From a virus, in IMG/VR virus record IMGVR_UViG_3300018059_000011, positions 20,544-84,543 of that record: DNA of 64,000 nt. The stretch is one strand, 5' to 3'. Positions 7,177 to 64,000 of the stretch are shown piece after piece; positions within the stretch are counted from its first letter, which is position 1, and each line of letters opens with the position of its first letter. Under the pieces are notes generated by a model. It was not told the origin of the DNA. It did no database searches and saw only the letters and a program-made list of their open reading frames with translations. The translations under genes and the position numbers were made by a program.

Positions 7177-7649
7177 TGCCGGTTCAAGACACAGGCGAGG
7201 CTCGCGACCTCATCATTGGCGTTGCCCAGGCAGCTATCAATACGCTGTCGCCGACGCCGAAGGTGCTGTACGCCGACAAGTCGGATGAAGTCCCGAAGGA
7301 CGGAGATACTTGGATTCGTGTCGCCGCCGTCCATTTTGCGGGCTATAAGGCGTCGCTCGGAAATGCTCAGGGCAAGTCTCGATTCCGCAATCGTGGCATC
7401 GTTCGCGTTGAGGTCCACACGCCGTTTGGCGACGGGTATACCCTGAGCGACCAAATCACAACCGTCATCAAGAACGCCTTCAGGAAACGCAGTTCGAGCG
7501 CCGATAAGGTCTCGTTCAGCAATGTTCTCTCCACGGAACAGCCCTATACCAGCAGGCCGGAATCCTCAGTTGTCGGGCCGGAAAAGGGCGATGGAAATTG
7601 GACCAGGGTGGACGTTACCGCAGAGTTCGATTACGCGGAAGTGGTATGA
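7176..7649 (+). CDS. Putative tail terminator / tail completion protein
   Basis: A 157-aa protein with the layout of siphophage tail terminators: N-terminal helix (GEARDLIIGVAQAAI), then WIRVAAVHF, a strand-rich core (GIVRVEVHTPFGDGYTLSD), a long helix ending in RKRSS, and a final strand VDVTAEFDY. It stands two genes before the tail tube once the endonucleases are ignored, as in lambda-like maps. Its last codons seem to be mirrored in a displaced copy downstream (8168-8245). The TGA overlaps ATG 7646. Confidence 0.65.
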   Translation: MPVQDTGEARDLIIGVAQAAINTLSPTPKVLYADKSDEVPKDGDTWIRVAAVHFAGYKASLGNAQGKSRFRNRGIVRVEVHTPFGDGYTLSDQITTVIKNAFRKRSSSADKVSFSNVLSTEQPYTSRPESSVVGPEKGDGNWTRVDVTAEFDYAEVV

Positions 7650-8248: not shown

Positions 8249-10611
8249 CTGCATTGACGAAGATCGACTCCAACGGCACGGGCCTTCGGTTCTGCGAGGA
8301 AGTCTCGCTCGGTGTGCTTTCGGCAACCGCCTCTCAAGTCTGGTATCCGGCTGAGCCCAACACCTACGACAATTTCGGCGGCCAGTTCAAGAAGGTCGCT
8401 CGGCGCCCCATCAATGCGTCGCGCCAGAATCGCAAGGGCGTGACCGTCGATCTCGACGCGGCTGGTGGCTACAACACCGATCTCACGCAGACCAATCTCA
8501 TCCGGTTGCTTCAGGGCTTCTTGTTCGCGGACGCCCGCGAGCCCTACGACAGCCAGTCGATCAACAATCAGGGCAGCGCCCTTACCGCCGTTGAAGATAG
8601 CGACGACACCTATCGTTTCTCCTACGGCAATGATCTCGACCGCGTGCTGGGGCAGAGCCTCGTGTTCGCCACCGATCTGGCAACGACCGCGAACAACGGT
8701 TTGAACGTAGTCAACTCGGTGACTCGCGCGCTCGCCGCCGGTACGCTGACGCTGACGCCCGGCGCAATCGTCGATGACGTTGTGGTTATCGACGGCGTGT
8801 ACTATCAGTTTGACGCCACGGTCACTGCGGGCTCTGGCACCGGCTTCGACCCCTACGTTGTGGACATCGGCGCGAACGACACCGAAGCCTTTGCCAATCT
8901 CGTGAAGGCGATCAATGCGACCGGCACACCCGGCACGGAGTATAGCTCCGCGCTTGTGAGCGCGCATCCGACTGTCGAAGCCATTTCCAGCAATGCGACC
9001 ACGATGGTCGTGAACGCCCGTAGCTACGGATACGCGGGCAACAGCATCGAGACCAGCGGCACCGGCAATGACGGCCTCGCTTGGGGCGGCACCACGCTCT
9101 CCGGCGGCACCGCGATGATCGACGTTGACGCGAGCCTCACCGACGAGACTGTCGATGACGACCACGCGGGAGGCACCCTGACCTTCACCGCTGGCGCAAT
9201 CGCCGATGACATCGTTGAAATCGACGGCGTGTTTTATCAGTTCGCGGCGGACCCCACCACGGGCACGCCGGATGGCTCCGAAGGCGATCCGTTCCTCGTC
9301 GATGTCGGCGGCACCGATACGATCTCGCTCGCCAATCTTCGCAAGGCGATCAACGCCACGGGCATCGCCGGAACGACCTATGCGGCGGAAGTCGTTGTCC
9401 ATCCGACTGTGACTGCGGTTTCGTCCGGTGCGACCACGTTGGTTGTGCGCGCGAAGGCTGCGGGTACGGACGGCAATGCAATCACGACTTCAGTCACGCT
9501 CTCCAGCACCGATGACGGCCTCGCTTGGGGCAGCACCAAGCTCTCCGGCGGCAACAACACTTCGGCCCGTGTCCGCGTGGTCGGTTATCAGTTCGCATCC
9601 TCCACCGTCGATGTGGTCGTGTCTTTCACGCATCCGAGAATCTCCCGCGCTTCCGGCGCTGTCGATTTCACTACGTTCGGTCTGGTCCCAGGCCAATTCC
9701 TCTGGGTTGGCGGCGATGTCTCTGGCAAGAAGTGGGTCAACGAGAACATGAATGGCTGGGCTCGCGTTCGCGAGGTCGGCGCCGCCTACATCGAGTTCGA
9801 CAAGACCTCGGCGGATTGGGCCGCTGAAACCGGCACCAGCTTGACGGTTCAAATCTTCTTCGGCGTGGTCCTCAAGAACGAGTCCGATCCTACGCTCATC
9901 AAGCGCCGGTCCTATCACCTGGAGCGCTCTTTGGGCTCGCCGGATGACGCCGACCTGACCGCGATCCAGAGCGAGTTGCTCACGGGCTCGGTTCCGAACC
10001 AGATGACCCTGGACTTCAAGACCGCCGACAAAGTGACGGTGGACTTGTCGTTCCTTTCGACCGATGACGTGCAGCGCACGGCCACGGAGGGCTTGCTCTC
10101 CCAGGCTGCGGTTCACGGCGGCGGCGCCGCTCCGGGCATCGTCAACGAAGACGCCTACAATACGTCGAACGACTTTTCGCGGCTGAAGATGGTCATCCTC
10201 GACCCGTTGGATTCCAGCCCGTCTCCGCTGTTCGCGTTCTTGCAGGATTTCAAGATCACGATCAACAACAACCTGAAGGCCAACAAGGCGATCTCTGTCC
10301 TTGGCGCCTTCGAGGTCACCGCCGGTCAGTTCGTTGTGACCGGGACGACCACGGCGTACTTCGCCGACATTGCTGCAATCGCCGCCGTTCGCAACAACAG
10401 CGACGTGAGCATCGACTTTGCGCTTTCTCGTGACAACGTGGGCTTCGCGGTCGATGTGCCGCTGATCTCGCTGGGCGACGGACGCGCTGACGTGAAGCAG
10501 GACGAAGCCATCATGCTGCCGTTGTCCATCGACGCGGCTGCCGACCGGCTTTTCGACTATACGATCCTGTTCGAGTTCTTCCCTTACCTGCCGGACGTTG
10601 CCGCCGAGTAA
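8245..10611 (+). CDS. Major tail tube protein with two inserted modules
   Basis: A 788-aa protein of the Phage_tube_2-type tail tube family, whose members are usually about 300-400 aa. The N-terminus has LRFCEEVSLGVL, YDNFGGQF, VARRPINASRQNRKGVTVDLDAAGG and NTDLTQTNLIRLLQGFLFAD. The tube fold resumes after residue about 440 (FASSTVDVVV, FVWGGD-like LWVGGD, RRSYHLERSL) and ends FDYTILFEFFPYL. Residues about 164-287 and 308-435 are two tandem copies of the module found in other virion proteins (VVIDGVYYQF...NLVKAINATG...TTLSGG and VEIDGVFYQF...NLRKAINATG...TKLSGG). They probably project from the tube as surface decorations. Confidence 0.82.
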   Translation: MTALTKIDSNGTGLRFCEEVSLGVLSATASQVWYPAEPNTYDNFGGQFKKVARRPINASRQNRKGVTVDLDAAGGYNTDLTQTNLIRLLQGFLFADAREPYDSQSINNQGSALTAVEDSDDTYRFSYGNDLDRVLGQSLVFATDLATTANNGLNVVNSVTRALAAGTLTLTPGAIVDDVVVIDGVYYQFDATVTAGSGTGFDPYVVDIGANDTEAFANLVKAINATGTPGTEYSSALVSAHPTVEAISSNATTMVVNARSYGYAGNSIETSGTGNDGLAWGGTTLSGGTAMIDVDASLTDETVDDDHAGGTLTFTAGAIADDIVEIDGVFYQFAADPTTGTPDGSEGDPFLVDVGGTDTISLANLRKAINATGIAGTTYAAEVVVHPTVTAVSSGATTLVVRAKAAGTDGNAITTSVTLSSTDDGLAWGSTKLSGGNNTSARVRVVGYQFASSTVDVVVSFTHPRISRASGAVDFTTFGLVPGQFLWVGGDVSGKKWVNENMNGWARVREVGAAYIEFDKTSADWAAETGTSLTVQIFFGVVLKNESDPTLIKRRSYHLERSLGSPDDADLTAIQSELLTGSVPNQMTLDFKTADKVTVDLSFLSTDDVQRTATEGLLSQAAVHGGGAAPGIVNEDAYNTSNDFSRLKMVILDPLDSSPSPLFAFLQDFKITINNNLKANKAISVLGAFEVTAGQFVVTGTTTAYFADIAAIAAVRNNSDVSIDFALSRDNVGFAVDVPLISLGDGRADVKQDEAIMLPLSIDAAADRLFDYTILFEFFPYLPDVAAE

Positions 10612-22938: not shown

Positions 22939-24824
22939 TGGCTAACGATCTTGCGCTCCCCCAAGTCGCGGCCAATCAGAATCAAAAGGAAGTCACCATA
23001 AACAGCGCCACCGAACAACTTGGTGGCGCGGTGTCCGATGAACTCGCCGTCGATTTGACCTCTGGCAACGTCACGCTGTCATCCACCAACTATCGCAAGT
23101 ACGTCGCCTTCGTGTGCTCGGGAAACTCGGTTGCTCGCAATCTCACGTTTCCAACCGTCAAGCGTGGGCTTGTCATCGTCGTTAATAATGGTTCGGCGAC
23201 GATGCACGTCGTCAAGGGCTCGACCTCGCTGCCGGTCATCGCCGGGGCTTCGTCCATGTTCCAGACGGACGGCACTACGGATGGCCTCGTCGAGTTGCAA
23301 GCTGCCGGTAACGGCAGCGGCGCCTCCGTTGCGTGGCGCGGCGCGTGGTCCGGCGCGACCACCTATGAGCCCAACGATCTCACGCAGGATGGCGGCTCCA
23401 CGTACATCTGCATTCTCGAACATACGAACCAAGAGCCTCCCAACGGCACGTATTGGGAACTTTTCGCCTCGAAGGGCGACACCGGCCCGACTGGGGCCAC
23501 GGGTCCGACCGGGGCTACGGGTGCGACTGGGGCGACCGGCGCGTTCGGCGGCGCCGTCGCCATCGAGTATGAGTTTTCGACCACGACTGCGGATGCCGAT
23601 CCCGGCAACGGCTTCCTGCGTCTGGATAATGCCACGCAGTTGAGCGCGACTACGATTCGCGCCGACTTGCTCGATTTCAACGGTGCGACCGTCACCAACA
23701 TTTTGGATGTGTTTGACGATAGCACCAGCGCCGTCAACGGCTTCATTCGCCTCGTCAAGAAGTCGGACCCCACGAAGTTTATTCTCTTCTCGGTCGGCAC
23801 CGTAGCGACCCCCGCTGGCTACCGCAATATCTCTGTCAATGAGGTCGCGGCGTCTGGCGCCGATCCTTTCGCTGATACCGACATCATCGTCTTGGAGTTC
23901 ACGGCCAACGGCGACAAGGGCGACACCGGAGCGACCGGCGCCACGGGTTCGTCTGGCGGCCTCGGCACTACGGGCTTGCCCGGAGGTTCCGTTACCATCG
24001 AATATACATTCTCGACCACTACCTCTGATGCCGATCCCGGCGCTGGAAATTTGCGACTCAACAATTCGACGCAGGCATCAGCCACCAAGATTTTCGCCGA
24101 TCTGCTCAATGACAACGGCGACGACTATACTGATCTGCTCGACACCCTCGATGCCAGCACCAATACGGTGAAGGGCGAAATCAAGCTTGTTAACAAGGCT
24201 GACTTCCGAAAGTTTATCATCTTCAACATGACGGCGCGGACAACCGCGACCGGCTATCGTAAGTTGGACATCACCGAGATTGCGACTTCGGGCGTCGATC
24301 CCCTTGTCAACGACGACACTATCTATCTCGTGTTCACGCGCGCTGGCGACAAAGGCGCGACGGGGGCCACGGGCGCGACCGGCGCGACCGGCGCGGGTGT
24401 CCCGACCGCCGGGTCCGCGCATCAAGTTCTGCGGAAGATCGACGGCACAGACTACAATACTGAATGGGCCGATCAGATTTACGACTTCGGCTTCTTCGCT
24501 GGCGGAAAGCCGGACACCGCTGAAATCGTTTTCAGGTACGTCGCTACTCGTGCTTTTCGGTTGCCATCGGCTCTTACGGGGTCGCAGTTCAATATCGGAA
24601 CGAATCCGGCTGCGACCATGACGTGGACGATTAAGAAGAATGGATCGTCCGCATCTGGTTCCGGCGGCACCGTCGCATTCTCCACAAGCGGCACCCCAAC
24701 GGTTACGTTTGCGGCAGACTCCGATTTTGCAGCCGGGGACATCCTCGAAGTGGACGCGCCGGGGTCACAAGATTCGACCGGCGCCGACATCTTCTTTGGC
24801 TTCCTCGCCAACTTGGTCCAGTAA
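22938..24824 (+). CDS. Collagen-like tail fibre / receptor-binding protein 1
   Basis: A 628-aa protein. The N-terminal 120 residues form a β-rich base (LALPQVAANQNQKEVTI, KRGLVIVVNNGSATMHVV). Residues about 132-180 match a small aromatic carbohydrate-binding repeat (WRGAWSGATTYEPNDLTQ, ICILEHTNQEPPNGTYWEL). Then G-x-y collagen-like triplets ([16 protein letters not shown]) precede two copies of an approximately 115-residue module (IEYEFSTTTADADPGNG and [17 protein letters not shown]), each followed by more triplets. A C-terminal β-domain ends the protein. The triplet stretches would form trimeric stalks. Confidence 0.8.
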   Translation: MANDLALPQVAANQNQKEVTINSATEQLGGAVSDELAVDLTSGNVTLSSTNYRKYVAFVCSGNSVARNLTFPTVKRGLVIVVNNGSATMHVVKGSTSLPVIAGASSMFQTDGTTDGLVELQAAGNGSGASVAWRGAWSGATTYEPNDLTQDGGSTYICILEHTNQEPPNGTYWELFASKGDTGPTGATGPTGATGATGATGAFGGAVAIEYEFSTTTADADPGNGFLRLDNATQLSATTIRADLLDFNGATVTNILDVFDDSTSAVNGFIRLVKKSDPTKFILFSVGTVATPAGYRNISVNEVAASGADPFADTDIIVLEFTANGDKGDTGATGATGSSGGLGTTGLPGGSVTIEYTFSTTTSDADPGAGNLRLNNSTQASATKIFADLLNDNGDDYTDLLDTLDASTNTVKGEIKLVNKADFRKFIIFNMTARTTATGYRKLDITEIATSGVDPLVNDDTIYLVFTRAGDKGATGATGATGATGAGVPTAGSAHQVLRKIDGTDYNTEWADQIYDFGFFAGGKPDTAEIVFRYVATRAFRLPSALTGSQFNIGTNPAATMTWTIKKNGSSASGSGGTVAFSTSGTPTVTFAADSDFAAGDILEVDAPGSQDSTGADIFFGFLANLVQ

Positions 24825-24836
24825 AGGGGTAGCGTT

Positions 24837-25574
24837 ATGGTACAGAAGTTCACGGTCAAATGTGGTGAAGCCTGGATGTTGGCCCAGGCCCACGGCAAGA
24901 CCGATCCATTCGATAATCTCATTGAAGATGCCGTCTTCGATGTCAGCGATGAGTTCCTGTTCGAGAACACCGACGAGAACGTCGCCGAGATCATCAAGCG
25001 CAATCCCGATTGGTGGGGCTCTCCGTCGAAGCTGAGGCGTAGTGCCGAGCGCTATCTCGCGTGCATGAAGTTCAATCTCTACCTGAAGGCCGACATCCTC
25101 GACGGCGATCCCAAAAAGCTGAAGACCTTCGAGTCGTTGAAGGACGCGACGCTCGACAAGATGAATGAGACTACGCACATTCCGAATACCTGCCACGGCA
25201 ACGGCCCGGCAGACGGCCACGCTTGCGTGCGGACCTATGTTTGGCATCGTGACAGCGATGCCGATGCCCGCGTGCATCATGACCACCGGATTCACCACAA
25301 ATGTAAGAACCATCGCCATCTCGATGACGAGCGGTGCCACGCGCAGATTCAGCACGAAGGTCGTCACATGAGCAATGTGCTGATCGCCGCCGAACAGATG
25401 TTCGGGACTCCGGTTGGTGAGTTCCATTTTAAGTTCAACGCGAATCGTGAACTTGAGGTCAGCCATTCGCGTTTGACGGCGGCGGGGATGGATAAGCTCC
25501 AGAAGCATGTGCGGGCCACCTATCCGAATACGCCGACGCATGTGAAGCCGCACCCCATCCACAAAGAGGAGTAA
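24837..25574 (+). CDS. His/Cys-rich protein of unknown function in the fibre cluster
   Basis: A 245-aa protein, ATG 24837 with AAAGGGG upstream. The N-terminal 130 residues are helical and acidic (FDNLIEDAVFDVSDEFLFENTDENV, WWGSPSKLRRSAERYLACMKF). A middle segment of about 50 residues is extremely rich in His with three Cys (HVHHDHRIHHKCKNHRH-like, ending HLDDERCHAQIQHEGRH). That could bind metal ions. No homologous family recognised. Its place between fibre genes suggests fibre assembly, maturation or a metal-stabilised tip. Confidence 0.65.
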   Translation: MVQKFTVKCGEAWMLAQAHGKTDPFDNLIEDAVFDVSDEFLFENTDENVAEIIKRNPDWWGSPSKLRRSAERYLACMKFNLYLKADILDGDPKKLKTFESLKDATLDKMNETTHIPNTCHGNGPADGHACVRTYVWHRDSDADARVHHDHRIHHKCKNHRHLDDERCHAQIQHEGRHMSNVLIAAEQMFGTPVGEFHFKFNANRELEVSHSRLTAAGMDKLQKHVRATYPNTPTHVKPHPIHKEE

Positions 25575-25580
25575 TATCCT

Positions 25581-26837
25581 GTGGGTGGAACGTCAGCCAT
25601 CTTTGGTTTCTCTCGGCCAGGCCTTAGTTCCATAACGACCGGCGGCACGTCTCGCTACTGGCCGCTCGGTGGTAACGGGTTTGGCTCTGCCAGCACGACC
25701 GAAGCTCTTGGTCAGATGTATTTCTATTCCAACGGAACGCTGAAGAATCTCGGTATTACCATAACCACGAATACCTACACCCTCACATTCACCAGCCGGA
25801 TCAATGGGGGCGCCGGGGCTCAGTCTATTTCGCAGACGGGCACTGGGCATTTTTCCGATTCCTCGAATATGGATTCGGTTACGTCCGGCCAGAATGTATA
25901 CATCAAGGCAGTGACTAGCGATGGCTCCCATACGGTCACCATTGCCGGTGGCGAAGTCGAGTTCAAAGCCAGCACTGGCAGCGGTAATCCGTTCTGCTTT
26001 AGCTCCAGCAGCTATACGGTTCCTGTCGAATACCAGTCGGGAGCGGGTTCGTTGTCGGCATTCGCGCCGCTGTACGGTGGCGCCCAGAACACAACGCCAT
26101 CTCCCACGGAAACGAAACTGGCAGATACCAAGTTGCGGGTATCCGGTACACTTCAGCGTTATCAGACTTACGTGCTGGTGAATACCCGAACGGTTGCCTG
26201 CTCGGTTACTTCTCGAAAGAGCACTACCGATCAGAATCAATCGGTCTCGATCCCGAACACCGGGGCCACGGGATATTTCGAGGATAGCAGCAACACCGAT
26301 ACCGTGTCGGGTGGCGACATCTGGAAGTACCATTTGAACGTTACCACCGGCACCGGGACGCTTGGTCTTGCATGGATGGGATGCTGGTTCACGACGACCA
26401 ATCATCAGTTCGATGTAGGATGCGGATGGGATAAAACTGTTGCGTCTATTTCTACTTCGGTTGACAATTTCTACCCGATTTCTGGCTACGGGGACTCTAC
26501 AACGACTGAGGCCAATGTCAAGCAAGTGGCGATGTTCGATTTCACCGCCGGGAATCTTCGTTGCACGGTCCCGACAAATTCCTCTGGGACTACGGTAACG
26601 GCGGCACTGTCGATCAATGGTTCTGCTGGGACTATGGCCCTGAGCATCACCAATGCTGTTATCGGAGATTTTGAGGACAGCAGCAATCAAGACAGCATCA
26701 CCGCGACGGAGACGCTCGCATTTAGGCATGGGCCGCCGAACAATTCCAGCTGGATCATCTCCAACATCACGATGACCGGCGATCCCGGCGCTGCCCCACA
26801 TCGCAAGCGCCGCATCTATTGGTCTCAAGGTGGGTAA
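25581..26837 (+). CDS. Repeat-containing virion protein (three β-modules)
   Basis: A 418-aa β-rich, Ser/Thr/Gly-rich protein with GTG start 25581. Three similar units of about 135 residues each carry a hallmark near residues 88, 230 and 363: GHFSDSSNMDSVTSG, GYFEDSSNTDTVSGG and GDFEDSSNQDSITAT, each preceded by a strand with SxTSRxN or VTxxxSINGS character. No secretion signal or catalytic motif. Placement in the fibre cluster suggests an accessory fibre or receptor-binding protein. Confidence 0.68.
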   Translation: MGGTSAIFGFSRPGLSSITTGGTSRYWPLGGNGFGSASTTEALGQMYFYSNGTLKNLGITITTNTYTLTFTSRINGGAGAQSISQTGTGHFSDSSNMDSVTSGQNVYIKAVTSDGSHTVTIAGGEVEFKASTGSGNPFCFSSSSYTVPVEYQSGAGSLSAFAPLYGGAQNTTPSPTETKLADTKLRVSGTLQRYQTYVLVNTRTVACSVTSRKSTTDQNQSVSIPNTGATGYFEDSSNTDTVSGGDIWKYHLNVTTGTGTLGLAWMGCWFTTTNHQFDVGCGWDKTVASISTSVDNFYPISGYGDSTTTEANVKQVAMFDFTAGNLRCTVPTNSSGTTVTAALSINGSAGTMALSITNAVIGDFEDSSNQDSITATETLAFRHGPPNNSSWIISNITMTGDPGAAPHRKRRIYWSQGG

Positions 26838-26841
26838 GGTC

Positions 26842-27219
26842 ATGGGAAAACATCACCGGCATTACGATCCGACCGGCCATTATTTCGAGGGCGGAAACCT
26901 CTTCGAGAGGATTCTTCGGTTCTTCAACCTGCTTGAGCCCAAGCAAATGGTGCTCTCGGTTTCCAAGATTGCGGTCTACTCCACACTCGGGTTGGTATTC
27001 TATGCTGTCAAGGCCGGACCCGGCAATATCGAGTTGGCGATGACCGCCCTTGCGGGTTTGGGGGTTAGCACGGTAAACTATGGGTATCGGCGGTACATGC
27101 AGTACCAGGAAGGGAATGGCCCGTATCCGACTCCGGCCAAAACTGACCAGCAGCCGCCCGATGACGTAGCTGATGCTGCCATGCGCGAGCTTGGAAAAGG
27201 TGGACCGAACAATGAGTAA
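26842..27219 (+). CDS. Small membrane protein, possible holin
   Basis: A 125-aa protein from ATG 26842 (GTG 26830 is an alternative, four codons longer). After a His/basic N-terminus there are two hydrophobic segments, MVLSVSKIAVYSTLGLVFYA and IELAMTALAGLGVSTV, followed by a polar C-terminal tail rich in Pro/Asp. This two-segment layout with a charged tail is compatible with a class II holin. It is distant from the endolysin gene, so the role is uncertain. The last bases overlap the next start by 8 nt. Confidence 0.55.
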   Translation: MGKHHRHYDPTGHYFEGGNLFERILRFFNLLEPKQMVLSVSKIAVYSTLGLVFYAVKAGPGNIELAMTALAGLGVSTVNYGYRRYMQYQEGNGPYPTPAKTDQQPPDDVADAAMRELGKGGPNNE

Positions 27220-27799
27220 GACGGGATTTGCCAAAGGGGCGGGACCGGCCATTTCGGGCGACGCGCAAAATTTGGCCGCCGGGCTCCGGCGTTTGGACAA
27301 GGTGCTCACGGGCACCGGCAAGGCGTATCTCAGCAAGGGCGATTGCAATCTCGATCCGTCCGTCATTCTCGACAACGCCCGTGTGCAGGTCGTTGGCGCG
27401 AACTCGGCGAACCGAACGCTTCATATCCCCTATGTGAATCGCGAAGTCATCTTCTCAAGCCATCCGAACAATCTCTTCGAGTTCGACATCGCCACCGACA
27501 AGATGACGATCTCGTTGAAGCCCGGCCAAAGTATCAAGGTGTTCATGGATGGCTTCGGCGGCATGGACGTGCTCGGCGGCTCTAGCGGCGGTGGCGGCCA
27601 GGGCCACGAAGGCAAGCGCGGTCCAGAGGGTCCACCCGGTAGACAGGGAGAACGTGGCGGCCAGGGCAATATCGGCCCGCGTGGTCCGCAAGGCAATCCC
27701 GGTCCAGCCGATCCGCGTTTCCAAATTCAGGACGGGCGTCTTCTGTTCGTTTCCGACCAAGGAACCTTTGTGATCTCGGCGACGAAGCTCCCCGGCTAA
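27212..27799 (+). CDS. Short collagen-like fibre protein
   Basis: A 195-aa protein with ATG 27212 overlapping the previous stop. The N-terminal 120 residues form a β-rich domain (RVQVVGANSANRTLHIPYVNRE, FDIATDKMTISLKPGQSIKVF). A Gly-rich hinge precedes about 12 G-x-y triplets with charged, collagen-like composition (GKRGPEGPPGRQGERGG), different from the GATG-type repeats of the long fibres. A short β C-terminus (LLFVSDQGTFVISA) closes it. The N-terminal domain resembles the start of the following giant fibre. Confidence 0.7.
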   Translation: MSKTGFAKGAGPAISGDAQNLAAGLRRLDKVLTGTGKAYLSKGDCNLDPSVILDNARVQVVGANSANRTLHIPYVNREVIFSSHPNNLFEFDIATDKMTISLKPGQSIKVFMDGFGGMDVLGGSSGGGGQGHEGKRGPEGPPGRQGERGGQGNIGPRGPQGNPGPADPRFQIQDGRLLFVSDQGTFVISATKLPG

Positions 27800-27814
27800 G
27801 GAGGAGCCGTTGTC

Positions 27815-31798
<3,984 letters not shown>

Positions 31799-57998: not shown

Positions 57999-58005
57999 GC
58001 GGTAT

Positions 58006-59706
58006 TTACGCGAAGAACCGCCCGGCCCAAAAGAATGCGATGCTGCGCTTTCCGTTCTGGTACGTGATGATGTGCGCGTGCGTATGCGACGACAAGCCGT
58101 GAACATATTCGAGGCGACGCTTTGAGGACGTGCCGCCCTGGTAGGCGCCGCCTGTGATCCTCGGGGAATGGCTGTGTCCGCCGTTGGCCTTGCGTCCGCT
58201 GTTGGCGATGGCGCGGGCCGATCCCCTGGCGCCGTCCGCACCCCGGTCGAAGTGAAGGCCGCATTCAATGCCGCCGCCCGCGTCTTTGCAGATGATGAAG
58301 CTTTCGTCTTCGGGCAGGAACGAGACGCCGAGCTTTTTCAGCTTGGAGGTCCACCCGACCAACTTCATACCTTCGACAAGAACATCTGCCTTGACGCCGT
58401 TGACGCGCTGCCACTTGAAGACGGCATCGTTCAACGCCGACCAGAACTCGGCATTCACCGGGTCTTTGCGCCCATCGACCTCGGTGAGCCAACGCTCAGG
58501 ATGCCGATCATGATTCGAGTTGACGACAATGGTCTTCGTGAACGGTCTCGCCGCGTGTTCGAGAAACTTGCCGACATCATCGAACTCGGTGCGAACGCTT
58601 TCTTTGTGCTCGATATAGCGAAGGTGCATCACATGCGAGTTCTTGATGTTATGATGGCCGCGACGGCTGAAGTCCAGAACGTCATGGATGAACTGGTACT
58701 CCGGCTGGAGCATATCCACAAGGCCGCCTTCGCCCCATGTGGCCGCGTCCACTTCCGGGTCAATGTTGTCAACATGAACGTCGCCGCCGGTCAATGCCTT
58801 GATGCGGTGACCATCCGTGACTTCTCCATCCTTCACCCGCAGCGTCAGATGATAGATGGTCCCGGTCGAGTCTGCGTTGATCTGATGGGGCCACCAATTA
58901 CCCTCGGAATCGACTTCGATCAGCAACGCGCCATAGGCGTGATGAAACTCGGCCTTGAGACCGGCGGCGCGCTGGATATAATTGCGAAGCGTGACCGTGC
59001 CGGTCGTGAAATTGAGCTTCGTGCCCTCACCTTTCATCGCCGCCACCGGCTCCAAGCCGATGGTCGTGTGCGGGAGGATCATCGACTTGCGGCCCGTCAA
59101 CACCTTCTTGCCCGCGAGCGGATTCGCCGTCGTCGGGCTTTCATTGGCCTCGCCGCAGAACACGAGACCCGGCGCGACTTCCATGCGCTGGTCCATGAGG
59201 AATGGTGTCAGCCGGTCATCCCATTTGAAATCGCGAACGGCCTTGAAGCGTTCGTTGTTCATCCACGCTGCTTTGTCGCCGCTGCCGTCCTTGTAGTAGG
59301 AGAACCGCGAGACGCAGATGCGCGCATCGTAGTGCTTGGCGAGGGCCTGAAGATTTGTCCAGAAGCCCTCATGCAGATTGGTATTGTTCTGGGCGCATGT
59401 GAAGAAATACCGATGGATTTTTCCCTTGTGCGGAAGCGGCGCCAGCTTCTTCGTTCGCATGGCCTTGATCTTGCCGCCGCGCCGTGGGCGACGACGCTGA
59501 GGCTTGTAGTCTCCGTTTTTGACCTCGGCGATGTGCTCGCGCGTCTTCCGGCCAGGACGAATCGGCTCGATCAATTGCTGGATCAGTGCTTCATCGTAGA
59601 GAGCGTGGACTTTTTTCCAGCCGGTGTTCGTCTGCCGAGCGACGGCTTTGAGGCTGCCATGCTTTTCGAGCGCGCGGACAAGTTGCTTCGGCGTGGTGAT
59701 GGTCAT
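58006..59706 (-). CDS. T5 A1-like metallophosphoesterase
   Basis: A 566-aa protein, close to the length of T5 A1. A basic helical N-terminus (HTH-like LVRALEKHGSLKAVARQTN) precedes the conserved YFFTCAQNNTNLHEGFW region. Metal-binding residues of the calcineurin-like fold are GGDVHVDN (about 307), NSNHDRH (about 399), GHSH (about 512) and THAHI (about 543). T5 A1 is needed for pre-early DNA transfer and host DNA degradation; here a DNA-processing role is likely, while two-step injection cannot be judged. Confidence 0.78.
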   Translation of the reverse strand: MTITTPKQLVRALEKHGSLKAVARQTNTGWKKVHALYDEALIQQLIEPIRPGRKTREHIAEVKNGDYKPQRRRPRRGGKIKAMRTKKLAPLPHKGKIHRYFFTCAQNNTNLHEGFWTNLQALAKHYDARICVSRFSYYKDGSGDKAAWMNNERFKAVRDFKWDDRLTPFLMDQRMEVAPGLVFCGEANESPTTANPLAGKKVLTGRKSMILPHTTIGLEPVAAMKGEGTKLNFTTGTVTLRNYIQRAAGLKAEFHHAYGALLIEVDSEGNWWPHQINADSTGTIYHLTLRVKDGEVTDGHRIKALTGGDVHVDNIDPEVDAATWGEGGLVDMLQPEYQFIHDVLDFSRRGHHNIKNSHVMHLRYIEHKESVRTEFDDVGKFLEHAARPFTKTIVVNSNHDRHPERWLTEVDGRKDPVNAEFWSALNDAVFKWQRVNGVKADVLVEGMKLVGWTSKLKKLGVSFLPEDESFIICKDAGGGIECGLHFDRGADGARGSARAIANSGRKANGGHSHSPRITGGAYQGGTSSKRRLEYVHGLSSHTHAHIITYQNGKRSIAFFWAGRFFA

Positions 59707-60032
59707 GTGAATTTCCTCTGATAATTCGGAAGGATGCGAGCCTTGGCAGCGTCGAGAACTCGACGGCCACGAAACGTGACGACATACTCACGGGGAATAA
59801 TAGCGCGGCGGCTACGGTCGAGCTTCCACGCAAGGCATTTCCATGAGCGAAGTGTCTCCATCATCTTGATGTGGGCTTCGCTCATGTAGTCGTCGTTGAC
59901 GGTGAAAGCCATCTTCTGCCGCGCGAGCATCTCGGCGTGTTGCAAAATCTGGAGGTACATAAACGGAATCCGTTCAGCCACGGTATCAACCGGCGTCCGC
60001 CACGTAACGCGCGTGTAAGGGAGAGAGGCCAT
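59703..60032 (-). CDS. Hypothetical early protein
   Basis: A 109-aa basic, helical protein (YLQILQHAEMLARQKMAFTV, SEAHIKMMETLRSWKC), ATG 60032. The C-terminal strand FRGRRVLDAAKARIL looks like a wing. Could be a small DNA-binding protein; no family recognised. Confidence 0.55.
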   Translation of the reverse strand: MASLPYTRVTWRTPVDTVAERIPFMYLQILQHAEMLARQKMAFTVNDDYMSEAHIKMMETLRSWKCLAWKLDRSRRAIIPREYVVTFRGRRVLDAAKARILPNYQRKFT

Positions 60033-60544
60033 CAGTTGGCGGACCTGAGTTTCTGGAAACCATAGTACGCGATGAGCGCGGCCTCCGCAACCCCAATCGC
60101 CTGGGGCTTAGTCCAGTGTCCCCGTTTCGGTGCAAAGAGATCGGCATAGGCAGGGAAGAGGGCAGAAGCTTTCGCGACCGCCGGGCCTTTGTCGCCCTTC
60201 GGCGCCCGCACGCCCATGTCACCTTTCCACTTGACCGGCGAGATCATGGTGATGGGAATACACTTGGCGGCGACGAGCCCGCGCATGAACCCGGCGCTGT
60301 ATCCGAACTTGAAGGACGAAGACCCGCCCTGGCCGTGAATGAACCCGACCTTCTCGACATAGGCGTGGCCCGGCAGGTTTCCGATAGGCCAGAGCCTATC
60401 GAACTCCATTGCCAAGAGCGCGTAGTTGATCTCGAAGCCCTTGCCGGTGGACTTTACTTCTTCGGGTCGGAGCGCGACCAGAGTGATGCCATCGTATTCG
60501 ACGATGGCCCCGGTCGAGCCGGGATCGACGCCCAAAATCCTCAT
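60032..60544 (-). CDS. RuvC-like Holliday junction resolvase
   Basis: A 170-aa protein from ATG 60544. It begins RILGVDPGSTGAIVEY with the first catalytic Asp (D7), a second acidic residue in AYVEKVGFIHGQG (E about 62), and a C-terminal KPQAIGVAEAALIAYYG with the last acidic residue, as in phage and bacterial RuvC-like resolvases. It would resolve recombination or replication intermediates before packaging. Confidence 0.82.
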   Translation of the reverse strand: MRILGVDPGSTGAIVEYDGITLVALRPEEVKSTGKGFEINYALLAMEFDRLWPIGNLPGHAYVEKVGFIHGQGGSSSFKFGYSAGFMRGLVAAKCIPITMISPVKWKGDMGVRAPKGDKGPAVAKASALFPAYADLFAPKRGHWTKPQAIGVAEAALIAYYGFQKLRSAN

Positions 60545-60738
60545 GGCTTTGCCTCCACTGTGGCGACGAATCGCTCGCCGCAATTGCAGATGTACGCCCG
60601 CCAAAGATTTCCGTCCGGCATCCGCACGAACGGCGACACCTTTGCGTGCGTATGATTTCCAATGATGTTGTCCGCGCGCGGGCAAGCCGGATGCAGTCTG
60701 TTGGCGTGAAAGAGAGTCTGAGCTTCTTCGCGGTTCAT
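60541..60738 (-). CDS. Hypothetical small Cys/His protein (65 aa)
   Basis: Overlaps both neighbours. Two Cys near the end (ICNCGERF) and Cys/His upstream may form a zinc site. Located between two nucleases. Confidence 0.55.
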   Translation of the reverse strand: MNREEAQTLFHANRLHPACPRADNIIGNHTHAKVSPFVRMPDGNLWRAYICNCGERFVATVEAKP

Positions 60739-61166
60739 TTAGTTCTCTCCAAATAGTCCGCGCATTTACGCAAGCGTGTAACTTCGTCTTGGGCATGTCC
60801 GATTGTCCGATTGCAAGCACAACACAGTACGCCGCGTACTTTGTTTGTAACGTGATCGTGGTCTACTACAAGGCGCTTAGGTCCGGTCTTTTCAAAAGCG
60901 TCACCGCAGGCAGCGCAACAATTATTTTGACTTGAGAGCATGTTCTCAAAATCAGACAGCGAGAGTCCGTATTTTTGTTTAAGGTGCCAAACTCTATATT
61001 TGGTCCGGTAGTCATCACCGCGTTCCAATCGCCAACGATTCATGTAATTGGCATGACGCTTTTTATCGCGAAGGCGCCTAGCTACTACGCGATCAGGACG
61101 CCGGTTACGCTTTTTATCATGCGCCCGGATTCTAGCCTTGCTTTCTTCTGATCGCCACACCATCAT
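60735..61166 (-). CDS. Endonuclease VII-like HNH endonuclease
   Basis: A 143-aa protein following the DNA polymerase gene. Basic N-terminal half, then YRVWHLKQKYGLSLSDFENML (the endo VII helix region), NCCAACGDAF, LVVDHDHVTNKVRGVLCCACN and IGHAQDE: a complete zinc-bound ββα core. AT-richer than its neighbours. Either a homing endonuclease or a true resolvase; the nearby RuvC-like gene makes homing more likely. Confidence 0.88.
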   Translation of the reverse strand: MMVWRSEESKARIRAHDKKRNRRPDRVVARRLRDKKRHANYMNRWRLERGDDYRTKYRVWHLKQKYGLSLSDFENMLSSQNNCCAACGDAFEKTGPKRLVVDHDHVTNKVRGVLCCACNRTIGHAQDEVTRLRKCADYLERTK

Positions 61167-61167
61167 T

Positions 61168-63183
61168 CTACTTCCTGTAACGGTCCTCGCGCCAGCATTC
61201 CACCGAGATCGGGCAGCCCTTCACCCACGGCGGAACCACGCACATGAGTTCCTCGAACTCATCGGCGCTGCCGAAGTCGGGATCGGTTTCGGAGATGATT
61301 TCGTCATGCACCGTCAGGATCACGGGGTACTTCGCGATCTCCAGCCGGATCATCGCCTCGGCCATGATGTCGCGCGAGATCGCCTGGACGATATTTTCCG
61401 TGAGCATCCCGCCGTAGGTTTGGATCGGACCCCATTTGCCGCCCTTCTTGGAGTCTTTACCCCAATACGTGATCTGGTCTTTCGGACCCCAAGAATGATG
61501 AACCTCTTCGATCCTTGGATTGAAATACCAGAGGCGACGGCCATTCGGGAGAATGCAAGTCAGCCATTTGCCGGACTTATCCTTGACCATCTCGAATGCG
61601 ATGTTGCGGTATGCCGAACGGAAGCCGGTCCTAACACAAGCGACAGCCGCTTCCTCAATCGCGTACCAGAACTGCACCACCTTCGGATGCTTTTTGCGCC
61701 AAGCTACTTTCTTCTCATCGACTTCGGAGTCGTTGTATTTATCGGACTTGTCGAACTTGCGCCATGCGTTGACGCCGCCCTGGTATCCGAACGCGAGTTC
61801 GCAGGTCTTGCCGACCTGACGTTCCTTTTTGTAGGTGTCCTTGGTCAGACACGGGTAGCCGAAGACCTGCGATGCCGTCGCCAGATAGATGTCCTGCGAA
61901 CCCCCGTAGCCTTCGCCACGGTCGATCCCGGCGAAGGCGTCGAGTTTCCACTGCTCGCCCGCGACCCATGCGAGCACGCGGGCTTCAATCGCCGAGAAGT
62001 CGCCGACGTTCATGACCTTGCCGGAACCGGCCACGAACATTCCGCGCAAAGCCGTGGACAGCGCATTCATGGGATCGCCGTACAGGACTTCCATTGCCGC
62101 GATGTCGCCGGTCTTGATGATCTTGATGAGGCGCGACATTCCCAGCCGCGCATTCTTGGTGATGATCTCTTCGTCGCCGCGTGGAAAGTTGTGCGGCTGA
62201 GGCCCGCGACCAGCCCACCGGCCAGTGCCAGCGCCGTGGTATTGCAGCAGCCCTCGCACGCGGCCATCACGACAAACCCAATCGAGAAGGCTATCGAGCT
62301 TCTTGATCGACGCCAGCGAGAGCATTTGACGGATTTGCAGCACCCGGCGGGCCTCGGGAGTGATCCCTTTATTTTCGAGCGCGATGTCGATGCTGTCGGC
62401 CTTCATGTCCGGCATATCGAGTTCGGCGTAATCCAAAAGCCATTGCTTGATGCGCGCCCGTTGCGATCCCTTCGTGACGATACCAGATGTCATCTTCGTG
62501 AGTTCGGCGTTGAGCGTCGTCTCGATAGTATTGCAGATCAGCTTCGCGGCGTTGATGGCTTCGAGATCAAGGGCGACGCCACGCTGATTGATAGTCTGGT
62601 CGAGCACCCAAAGCTTCTGCTCGGAGTCGGTGAGATCGCCGATGGTAACACCGAGGCCATGCTCGGTGTCTGTGTCACGGACGCAGTAGTCGTAAAGCTC
62701 CTGCATCAAGTCGAAGTCGTCGCACCATTCGCTCGTATTGTTCTTGGTGATCTTCTGCGGCGCGCAGAGTTTGCGGATCAGGAATTTGCCGCGCGGGTCT
62801 TTCTTAGTTGTGAGATTGAGGGCGTCTCCGACCTGATCCAAGCCAAGAGGCAGCGCCCGATACGCGCAGACGGCCAGTGTGTCTTTCCACCGCCGGGGCA
62901 TGGGAATGCCCATCTGCTTATTGAGAATGTTGATCCAGATCGCGCGCTCGAATTGCGCGTTGTGCGCCTCGAAGAAGATGACGCCTGAATTGATGAGGTC
63001 GATGAGGGCTTGGGGAAACGGAAGATCAGGAGTCCACAGGCCGGTGCGCCCGTTCCCGATTTTATACGACATGCACAAGATGGAAGTCGAAGCATCCTCG
63101 GCGTAGCGCCAAGCTCCAACTACAGTTACGTCCAAACGACTACGGGTTTCAAAATCGACCACAACTTTATCGGGAAGAAGCAT
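61168..63183 (-). CDS. Family A DNA polymerase with 3'-5' exonuclease domain
   Basis: A 671-aa protein. The exonuclease domain starts VVVDFETRS (D10, E12) and includes AHNAQFERAIW and YCVRDTDTEHGL. Polymerase motif A is DFSAIEARVLAW (about 394-405), motif B REx3K-like RQVGKTCELAFGYQGG (about 453), motif C VHDEI (about 624). The start has GGAGGAAG upstream, supplied by the overlapping 3' end of an HNH gene. The first 25 codons exist a second time upstream with different codons (63589-63663), so this gene's 5' end appears to be a replacement. Confidence 0.92.
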   Translation of the reverse strand: MLLPDKVVVDFETRSRLDVTVVGAWRYAEDASTSILCMSYKIGNGRTGLWTPDLPFPQALIDLINSGVIFFEAHNAQFERAIWINILNKQMGIPMPRRWKDTLAVCAYRALPLGLDQVGDALNLTTKKDPRGKFLIRKLCAPQKITKNNTSEWCDDFDLMQELYDYCVRDTDTEHGLGVTIGDLTDSEQKLWVLDQTINQRGVALDLEAINAAKLICNTIETTLNAELTKMTSGIVTKGSQRARIKQWLLDYAELDMPDMKADSIDIALENKGITPEARRVLQIRQMLSLASIKKLDSLLDWVCRDGRVRGLLQYHGAGTGRWAGRGPQPHNFPRGDEEIITKNARLGMSRLIKIIKTGDIAAMEVLYGDPMNALSTALRGMFVAGSGKVMNVGDFSAIEARVLAWVAGEQWKLDAFAGIDRGEGYGGSQDIYLATASQVFGYPCLTKDTYKKERQVGKTCELAFGYQGGVNAWRKFDKSDKYNDSEVDEKKVAWRKKHPKVVQFWYAIEEAAVACVRTGFRSAYRNIAFEMVKDKSGKWLTCILPNGRRLWYFNPRIEEVHHSWGPKDQITYWGKDSKKGGKWGPIQTYGGMLTENIVQAISRDIMAEAMIRLEIAKYPVILTVHDEIISETDPDFGSADEFEELMCVVPPWVKGCPISVECWREDRYRK

Positions 63184-63592
63184 ATACTTCCTCCATTTTT
63201 CTAAGCACAGCCTGGGCCAATTGGAGAAGTTCTTGGGGAGAAAGACTCCCCTTCGCCCGGTTGCACCTATTGCAAATCACCCAAACATTGGTGGGGATGT
63301 ACCCGCGCTTGGAGTCAATCCTGTCCAGTGTTGGAGAATAGTTAGCGATCTTGTCGTCAGCCACTTTCATAGAGACGTGGCAAATTGGGCAATGCGAAGG
63401 AATAGGAGTGATGTCGGCGGGGGTCAATCGGTATTCAAGACCGTCTCTTCTGGAGCGTTCTCTAGCCCCTTTCAACATATTGATGTAGGGACGTTCGTGT
63501 TGTTGTCGTCTTTTGATAAGCCGCGCTTTTTCAGGAAAGCGCTTGGCCCATTTGTTCCCGCCGCCCTTTTTCCTCATGGCAACACCGGCCAC
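63167..63592 (-). CDS. HNH homing endonuclease inserted at the DNA polymerase gene
   Basis: Up to 141 aa (GTG 63592, or ATG 63577 with 136 aa). Basic N-terminus (KKGGGNKWAKRFPEKARLIKRR), then CPICHVSM, SPTLDRIDSKRGYIPTNVWVICNRCN and AKGSLSPQEL, a complete HNH domain with two Cys pairs. Its 3' end overlaps the polymerase start by 17 nt and carries that gene's RBS. It starts right after a stranded copy of the polymerase N-terminus. Clear homing-element character. Confidence 0.9.
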   Translation of the reverse strand: MAGVAMRKKGGGNKWAKRFPEKARLIKRRQQHERPYINMLKGARERSRRDGLEYRLTPADITPIPSHCPICHVSMKVADDKIANYSPTLDRIDSKRGYIPTNVWVICNRCNRAKGSLSPQELLQLAQAVLRKMEEVYASSR

Positions 63593-63663
63593 GCGCCGAC
63601 GACGGTCACGTCAAGACGCGACCTCGTTTCAAAATCGACGACTACCTTGTCCGGCAGAAGCAA
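63589..63663 (-). pseudogene. Stranded copy of the DNA polymerase 5' end
   Basis: Codons TTG...TGG encode LLLPDKVVVDFETRSRL... identical at residues 2-25 to the intact polymerase start (63109-63183), yet about 16 of 24 codons differ, almost all synonymously. The frame then hits TGA after four more residues, next to the HNH start. It is the original gene end, cut off by the HNH insertion. Confidence 0.85.
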
Positions 63664-63718
63664 CGGAGCACCACGGCTAAGTTAGCCGCATATCATTCCC
63701 CACGTTTACCATGATGAG

Positions 63719-63746
63719 ATCATACGCCGATGTGAGAGGATGTCAA
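63719..63746 (-). promoter_or_regulatory. Leftward promoter for the replication block
   Basis: TTGACA (63741-63746), 16-bp spacer, TATGAT (63719-63724): 6/6 and 5/6 consensus matches. It lies about 55 bp upstream of the stranded polymerase 5' end, so it was probably the original polymerase promoter and now also drives the HNH gene. Confidence 0.78.
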
Positions 63747-64000
63747 ACGGATTTCGGGGTGGTCGGCCTGACTTGGGACCAAGGCCGCAACGAGTGAGAG
63801 CATCTGACGATGCCATCGTTGGCGACCACTCCGAAAATCGTCGGTCGGTCTGACTTGTAACCAGACTGTAAGGTTCGAGACCAGATTATGAATCCGGTCT
63901 TCCCTGGCGACTCCCGATAGGGCAGCGGGGCTACCCTACGACTAGCGCCGGGTGCCCCACTGGGGTCCATCGTCCTTTAGGGGCGATGGTTCCCTGTTCA
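63747..64000. promoter_or_regulatory. Non-coding right edge with repeats and hairpins
   Basis: No supported gene. A 15-bp direct repeat GGTCGGYCTGACTTG occurs at 63761-63775 and 63843-63857. Inverted repeats include GTGGTCG/CGACCAC, GTCTG/CAGAC (about 63849-63865) and GACCAGAT/ATCCGGTC (63879-63899). Further GC stems follow toward the end. Such structure upstream of the main replication promoter could be a control region or origin; the window ends before this can be judged. Confidence 0.4.

Follow-up and report, generated by a model that had tools for sequence, protein, structure and literature searches.

A probable intronless homing element that gives a phage DNA polymerase gene a recoded 5' end

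Introduction

Homing endonucleases are usually taken to depend on an intron, an intein, or a site between genes, since they would otherwise kill the gene that they enter. The closest described systems to the one reported here are the mobile open reading frames (ORFs) of fungal mitochondria, known from atp6 of Allomyces macrogynus, from atp6, atp9, cox2, and nad3 of Glomus sp., and from atp9 of Rhizopus. In these, a homing endonuclease ORF enters a coding sequence together with a gene end of foreign origin, synonymous for the most part, which becomes fused to the native gene, and the native end is stranded (PMC3630166).

Two further systems are found in phages. The seg and mob genes of bacteriophage T4 are intronless homing endonuclease genes that lie beside essential replication or nucleotide genes and show overlap or translational coupling with their neighbours; in the review of these mobile elements we found no recoded replacement end, and the word stem ‘duplicat’ is absent from it (PMC2988022). 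Intron-encoded HNH proteins occur in phage polymerase genes (e.g. those of the T7-like Vi06 and of Pf-WMP3 [PMC3428280 for Pf-WMP3]), which rely on RNA splicing.

Here, we follow up an initial annotation of a DNA polymerase gene in the IMG/VR virus record IMGVR_UViG_3300018059_000011. The stretch analysed (hereafter ‘the window’) makes up the final 64 kb of this 84,543-bp record. The gene had been likened to endonuclease insertions in fungal mitochondrial genes, and the likeness is apt: as with the fungal mobile ORFs, the phage element would strand the native end and fuse a foreign, synonymous end to the gene. The exchanged ends are C-terminal in the fungal cases, however, and the endonucleases are of the LAGLIDADG or GIY-YIG type and mitochondrial (PMC3630166), whereas the phage element is N-terminal and HNH-type and, unlike its fungal counterparts, must also supply a start codon and a ribosome-binding site. 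Like the T4 seg and mob genes, the HNH gene in the window is small, intronless, situated beside an essential gene, and overlapping its neighbour; T4-type endonucleases, unlike the window element, sit between genes or split a gene in two (as mobE of Aeh1 does in nrdA) (PMC2988022). HNH proteins related to that of the window also lie in polymerase genes such as those of Vi06 and Pf-WMP3, but in the window a second coding start makes the gene whole again, and no intron was found. A literature search returned no description of an N-terminal recoded replacement in phages, which is weak evidence of novelty, most subscription journals lying outside that search.

Structure of the polymerase locus

The intact polymerase ORF (63183..61168, minus strand) encodes 671 amino acids of the DNA_pol_A family, and a second copy of its first 25 codons lies upstream on the same strand (63663..63589). 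The initial annotation had reported a doubled polymerase start with the same residues and recoded codons, and this is borne out: residues 2–25 are the same in both copies, 16 of the 24 codons differ, and the differences amount to 20 nt, all synonymous. The first codon is TTG in the upstream copy and ATG in the downstream copy. An independent repeat finder returned a single 75-nt direct repeat with a spacing of 480 nt and 73% identity; in a low-complexity-filtered scan of the 84.5-kb record for recoded same-strand protein repeats, the polymerase-start pair ranks first, and the reversed-sequence control of that scan gave 0 pairs. If 20 single substitutions were placed at random in this stretch, the probability of all being synonymous would be ~3e-12.

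Between the two copies of this gene end, as in the mobile ORFs that duplicate a gene end, lies an endonuclease ORF. This HNH-type gene runs from an ATG at 63577 to a stop at 63167 (63167..63577, minus strand; 136 aa, or 141 aa from a GTG at 63592) and shares 17 nt with the polymerase start. A GGAGG is placed 6 nt before the polymerase ATG at 63183, inside the HNH gene, so that the end of the HNH gene does overlap the new start and supply its ribosome-binding site, as had been claimed. By this arrangement, the downstream copy (63109..63183, minus strand), comprising codons 1–25 in frame with the body, gives the intact polymerase frame both its start codon and its ribosome-binding site. The body itself continues from codon 26 (RYAED...) at 63108 to 61168 on the minus strand and matches PHROG 17 DNA polymerase (E=9e-105). 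The inserted unit would then be 480 bp long (63109..63588, minus strand) and consist of the HNH gene and the recoded 5' end, its bounds being the end of the upstream copy and the point at which native-like composition resumes at codon 26.

A promoter had also been placed ahead of the second copy, and a predicted promoter-like site, TTGACA-16-TATGAT, is present there, ~55 nt before that copy (63746..63719, minus strand). It is the only sigma-70-like match in 63050–64000, at 11/12 positions, with 0.4 expected in shuffles. No good Shine-Dalgarno sequence was found for the TTG start of the upstream copy. The frame that this TTG opens continues a few codons past the repeat as a truncated stub of 29 codons plus stop (63574..63663, minus strand; translation LLLPDKVVVDFETRSRLDVTVVGAWPVLP, then the stop), and its TGA overlaps the HNH start codon as ATGA.

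The duplicated codons contain the DFET exonuclease motif known from family A polymerases, and a polymerase missing this stretch would for that reason probably be impaired.

Two other features of the window may be recorded. A second endonuclease gene (Endonuclease_7, E=3e-20; 60735–61166, minus strand) begins directly behind the stop codon of the polymerase gene and has an ATGA overlap with the gene that follows it, with no doubled gene end seen there. At ~23460–31245 (plus strand) are collagen-like proteins rich in G-x-T repeats and with repeated domains, which are probably tail fibres.

Composition of the two copies

The third-position GC content (GC3) of codons 2–25 is 0.71 in the stranded upstream copy, close to the 0.75 of the polymerase body, and 0.29 in the functional downstream copy; no 24-codon window of the body falls as low, the minimum being 0.46. 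Codon-usage likelihoods divide the copies in the same way: the upstream copy is a better fit to the polymerase body, by 9.5 nats, and the downstream copy to the two endonuclease genes that flank the polymerase, by 13 nats. From codon 26 onward, the polymerase is native in composition. Because GC3 and codon usage split in this manner, the stranded upstream 5' end is, judged by composition, the native one, and the working 5' end arrived with the HNH gene. That an element had brought in a foreign, recoded gene start, as the initial annotation held, is supported here by codon composition and is seen directly in two analogous phages (below). The two versions of the polymerase start diverged before the insertion, under selection. 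The insertion itself looks recent, since none of the 24 residues has yet been lost from the stranded copy.

The insertion point lies between polymerase codons 25 and 26, in the strongly conserved VGAW|RYAED. Related polymerase genes are unbroken across this site, most of them having been found by the pattern VGAWRYA and hence selected for that very sequence; six loci found via other peptides (L001–L006) are also unbroken where they cover it. The nearest polymerase is ~52% identical at the protein level; the pattern search yielded many relatives, of which the best are about 50% identical, and these carry no element. With relatives this distant, the insertion into the polymerase gene of this phage is inferred. 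ULINTec4 has no duplicated polymerase start, though an HNH gene overlaps the start of its polymerase. Three polymerase loci with broken alignments were considered as possible duplications and rejected as intein-like on inspection. In one (L056:7740–8430, minus strand), an intein-like in-frame insertion after GTGRW accounts for the break; in the other two (L059:2700–3500 and L008:6600–7600), the intein-like insertions contain an HNH-like protein in a different, overlapping frame of the intein DNA.

The HNH-type protein

The closest family of the window protein is PHROG 3322 endonuclease (E=1e-24), and its Pfam HNH score is below the cut-off. The classical histidine motif is replaced by D-R (LDRID), so that the general-base histidine is lacking. 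The family profile matches PacI, a solved, rare-cutting restriction enzyme, weakly (E=0.033), and the two have the D-R arrangement in place of His in common. It is plausible that the protein works in an HNH-like manner despite this substitution, and its relatives include proteins found inside split or intron-bearing phage polymerase and ribonucleotide reductase genes. On these family relationships, the window protein is a putative endonuclease.

A single-protein search of IMG/VR yielded no relatives, and the nine-member profile A2 offers no stretch of sufficient conservation for a search. The sole result of an HNH-motif pattern search, L190, is a free-standing HNH gene at which no duplicated gene end was found. 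Outside the window (G000, 7324–7560 and 9495–9731), there are two paralogous HNH-like genes ~2 kb apart whose proteins are 52% identical.

Analogous insertions in thyX of Streptomyces phages

Relatives of the window HNH protein led to the thyX gene of the Streptomyces phage Targaryen; the two HNH families, the second of which also includes the protein of phage Belfort, are homologous (hhalign probability 99.6). In Targaryen, 23 stranded thyX codons upstream are followed by a small gene, an HNH gene, and a recoded start that overlaps the HNH end. The thyX genes of Warpy and Jay2Jay have no insert; the recorded host of both Targaryen and Jay2Jay is Streptomyces lividans JI 1326. Their 18 codons before the junction are 96% identical to the stranded Targaryen copy vs 72% to the recoded one, and the 40 codons past the junction are 100% identical. 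Belfort belongs to another genus and its HNH protein is 60% identical to that of Targaryen; its thyX is interrupted at the same codon (GAC CTT|). The stranded Belfort copy is 97% identical to thyX of SparkleGoddess and Comrade, the recoded copy 63–65%, and the 40 codons after the junction 96–100%. The initial annotation had predicted a nucleotide-level match to uninterrupted relatives for the polymerase copy at 63663..63589; in these analogues, it is the stranded copy that gives this match (Targaryen with Warpy, Belfort with SparkleGoddess). The uninterrupted alleles in close relatives that are expected for a homing endonuclease thus exist for both phages, and the assignment of the fused copy as foreign and the stranded copy as native, made by composition in the window, follows here from those alleles.

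The recoded head of Targaryen thyX is 96% identical to thyX of Paradiddles, and for this reason we read it as a natural foreign allele. Paradiddles (L189, 1217–1290) is a related phage with no HNH gene before thyX, and its thyX start may be the footprint of a lost element or represent the donor lineage. At the level of alignment, these phages demonstrate that the structure seen in Targaryen and Belfort comes about when an uninterrupted gene is invaded, little or nothing of the target being lost, and that the recoded end can derive from the allele of another phage.

The same thyX arrangement occurs in IMG/VR in L084–L087, which form one lineage, and in L092, where the stub is in frame with and fused to the HNH protein (p=0.005 each, the floor for 200 shuffles). 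L088 is a possible case by eye and is not significant by shuffling (p 0.73). In L102 (283–1272), it is the 3' end of thyX that is doubled (48 residues, 73% identical), with an HNH gene and a second small gene between the copies, and in L185 the 3' end of a gene is likewise duplicated around an HNH gene. Exchange of the C-terminal end, as in the fungal mobile ORFs, is confined to these two loci; at the window polymerase and at the preceding thyX loci it is the N-terminus that is affected. The metagenomic contigs thus add two or more thyX lineages to Targaryen and Belfort, together with two loci that carry the putative element in a 3'-end version. Of 80 loci with a different HNH family, L185 alone shows a gene-end duplication across the HNH gene, which argues that the pattern is not a scanning artefact.

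No stranded thyX copy is detectable in at least seven cases (Samisti12, Sushi23, Daubenski, Braelyn, Anedea, L089, and L090), despite an endonuclease gene abutting or just before thyX. In Samistivirus phages other than those with a stub, the gene adjoining the thyX start is of the HNH, LAGLIDADG, or endonuclease VII type. These endonuclease genes may be older insertions whose stub has been lost, or ordinary intergenic insertions. Across L078–L083 (thyX of Samisti12, Sushi23, Daubenski, Braelyn, Belfort, and Anedea), the start is abutted by differing HNH, endonuclease VII-type, and LAGLIDADG genes, which suggests that the thyX start is a hot spot for unrelated endonucleases.

Discussion

We consider it very probable that the window polymerase carries an intronless homing element that was inserted in the coding sequence, stranded the native 5' end, and put in its place a synonymous version that has a start codon and a ribosome-binding site of its own. 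In the mechanism that we propose, the HNH protein would cut the uninterrupted gene at the junction, and repair of the break from an element-bearing genome would insert the unit. The recoded end would restore the essential protein and at the same time destroy the recognition sequence; almost every third base near the junction differs, and the recoded end should therefore escape cutting, which makes it a candidate cleavage-resistant allele. The stranded native start may in turn help to express the HNH gene, through the ATGA coupling or through fusion. Several observations count against this reading: the HNH protein scores below the Pfam cut-offs and has D-R for the classical histidine, the TTG of the stranded copy is poorly served by a Shine-Dalgarno sequence, at least seven phages or contigs combine an endonuclease gene at thyX with no detectable stub, and 79 of the 80 HNH loci scanned have no gene-end duplication.

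The main rival is simple gene conversion, in which a donor's free-standing HNH gene and part of the donor gene were copied in and the left end was joined illegitimately, the recoded end being donor flank and no defined element existing. When phage endonuclease genes home without an intron, flanking DNA is normally co-converted (PMC2988022), the Targaryen head resembles a natural, Paradiddles-like allele, and in Daubenski, Sushi23, and others an endonuclease gene abuts thyX with no stub. Random crossovers would usually be expected further into the gene, however, whereas in the window and in both thyX phages the recoded stretch and the stranded copy stop at the same point or no more than a codon apart. 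This coincidence of end points within a codon in three cases, few as they are, favours a defined unit, and we regard gene conversion as improbable.

An HNH-bearing intron, in which the upstream copy would be exon 1, joined by splicing to codon 26, and the second copy an alternative start inside the intron, would agree with the frequency of related HNH genes in introns or split genes of phage polymerases and ribonucleotide reductases, and folding of the region is somewhat more favourable than that of shuffled sequence (z=-2.7). We nevertheless judge it very unlikely at the polymerase locus, because no catalytic RNA of a group I or II intron was found around the HNH gene (no Rfam match up to E=1 in 58000–64000) and because the downstream copy, in frame and complete, has a start codon and a Shine-Dalgarno sequence (GGAGG) of its own. 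An intron alone would not retain all 24 residues, and the Targaryen and Belfort inserts likewise end in a recoded start, beside uninterrupted relatives. Least credible of all is that the gene start was tandemly duplicated in the ordinary way, received the HNH gene between its two copies, and then drifted synonymously: the copies are equal in length and in direct orientation, but all 20 of the 20 differences are synonymous (~3e-12 by chance) in spite of the stranded copy opening nothing longer than a 29-codon stub, the codon compositions of the copies are opposite, as fits the earlier statement that this is not a recent tandem duplication, and the recoded Targaryen copy matches the allele of another phage.

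A general proposal, to which we give somewhat less than even credence, is that phages carry widespread, polyphyletic intronless homing elements that invade essential genes in frame, each packing a cleavage-resistant synonymous gene end, mostly 5', and being expressed from the start signals of the host gene via the stranded stub. If this is true, past homing could be traced by its footprints, namely stranded stubs and the resistant alleles that persist once an element has been lost (perhaps thyX of Paradiddles).

The Streptomyces phages are in culture and form nearly identical pairs, one member having the element and the other lacking it, in which cleavage, resistance, and spread are directly testable. 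Such an element would account for short orphan stubs and misannotated small genes ahead of essential phage genes, and for abrupt shifts in codon usage near the beginning of genes. With these phage elements, homing endonucleases would have another route into genes, namely a synonymous replacement for the gene end that they cut off.
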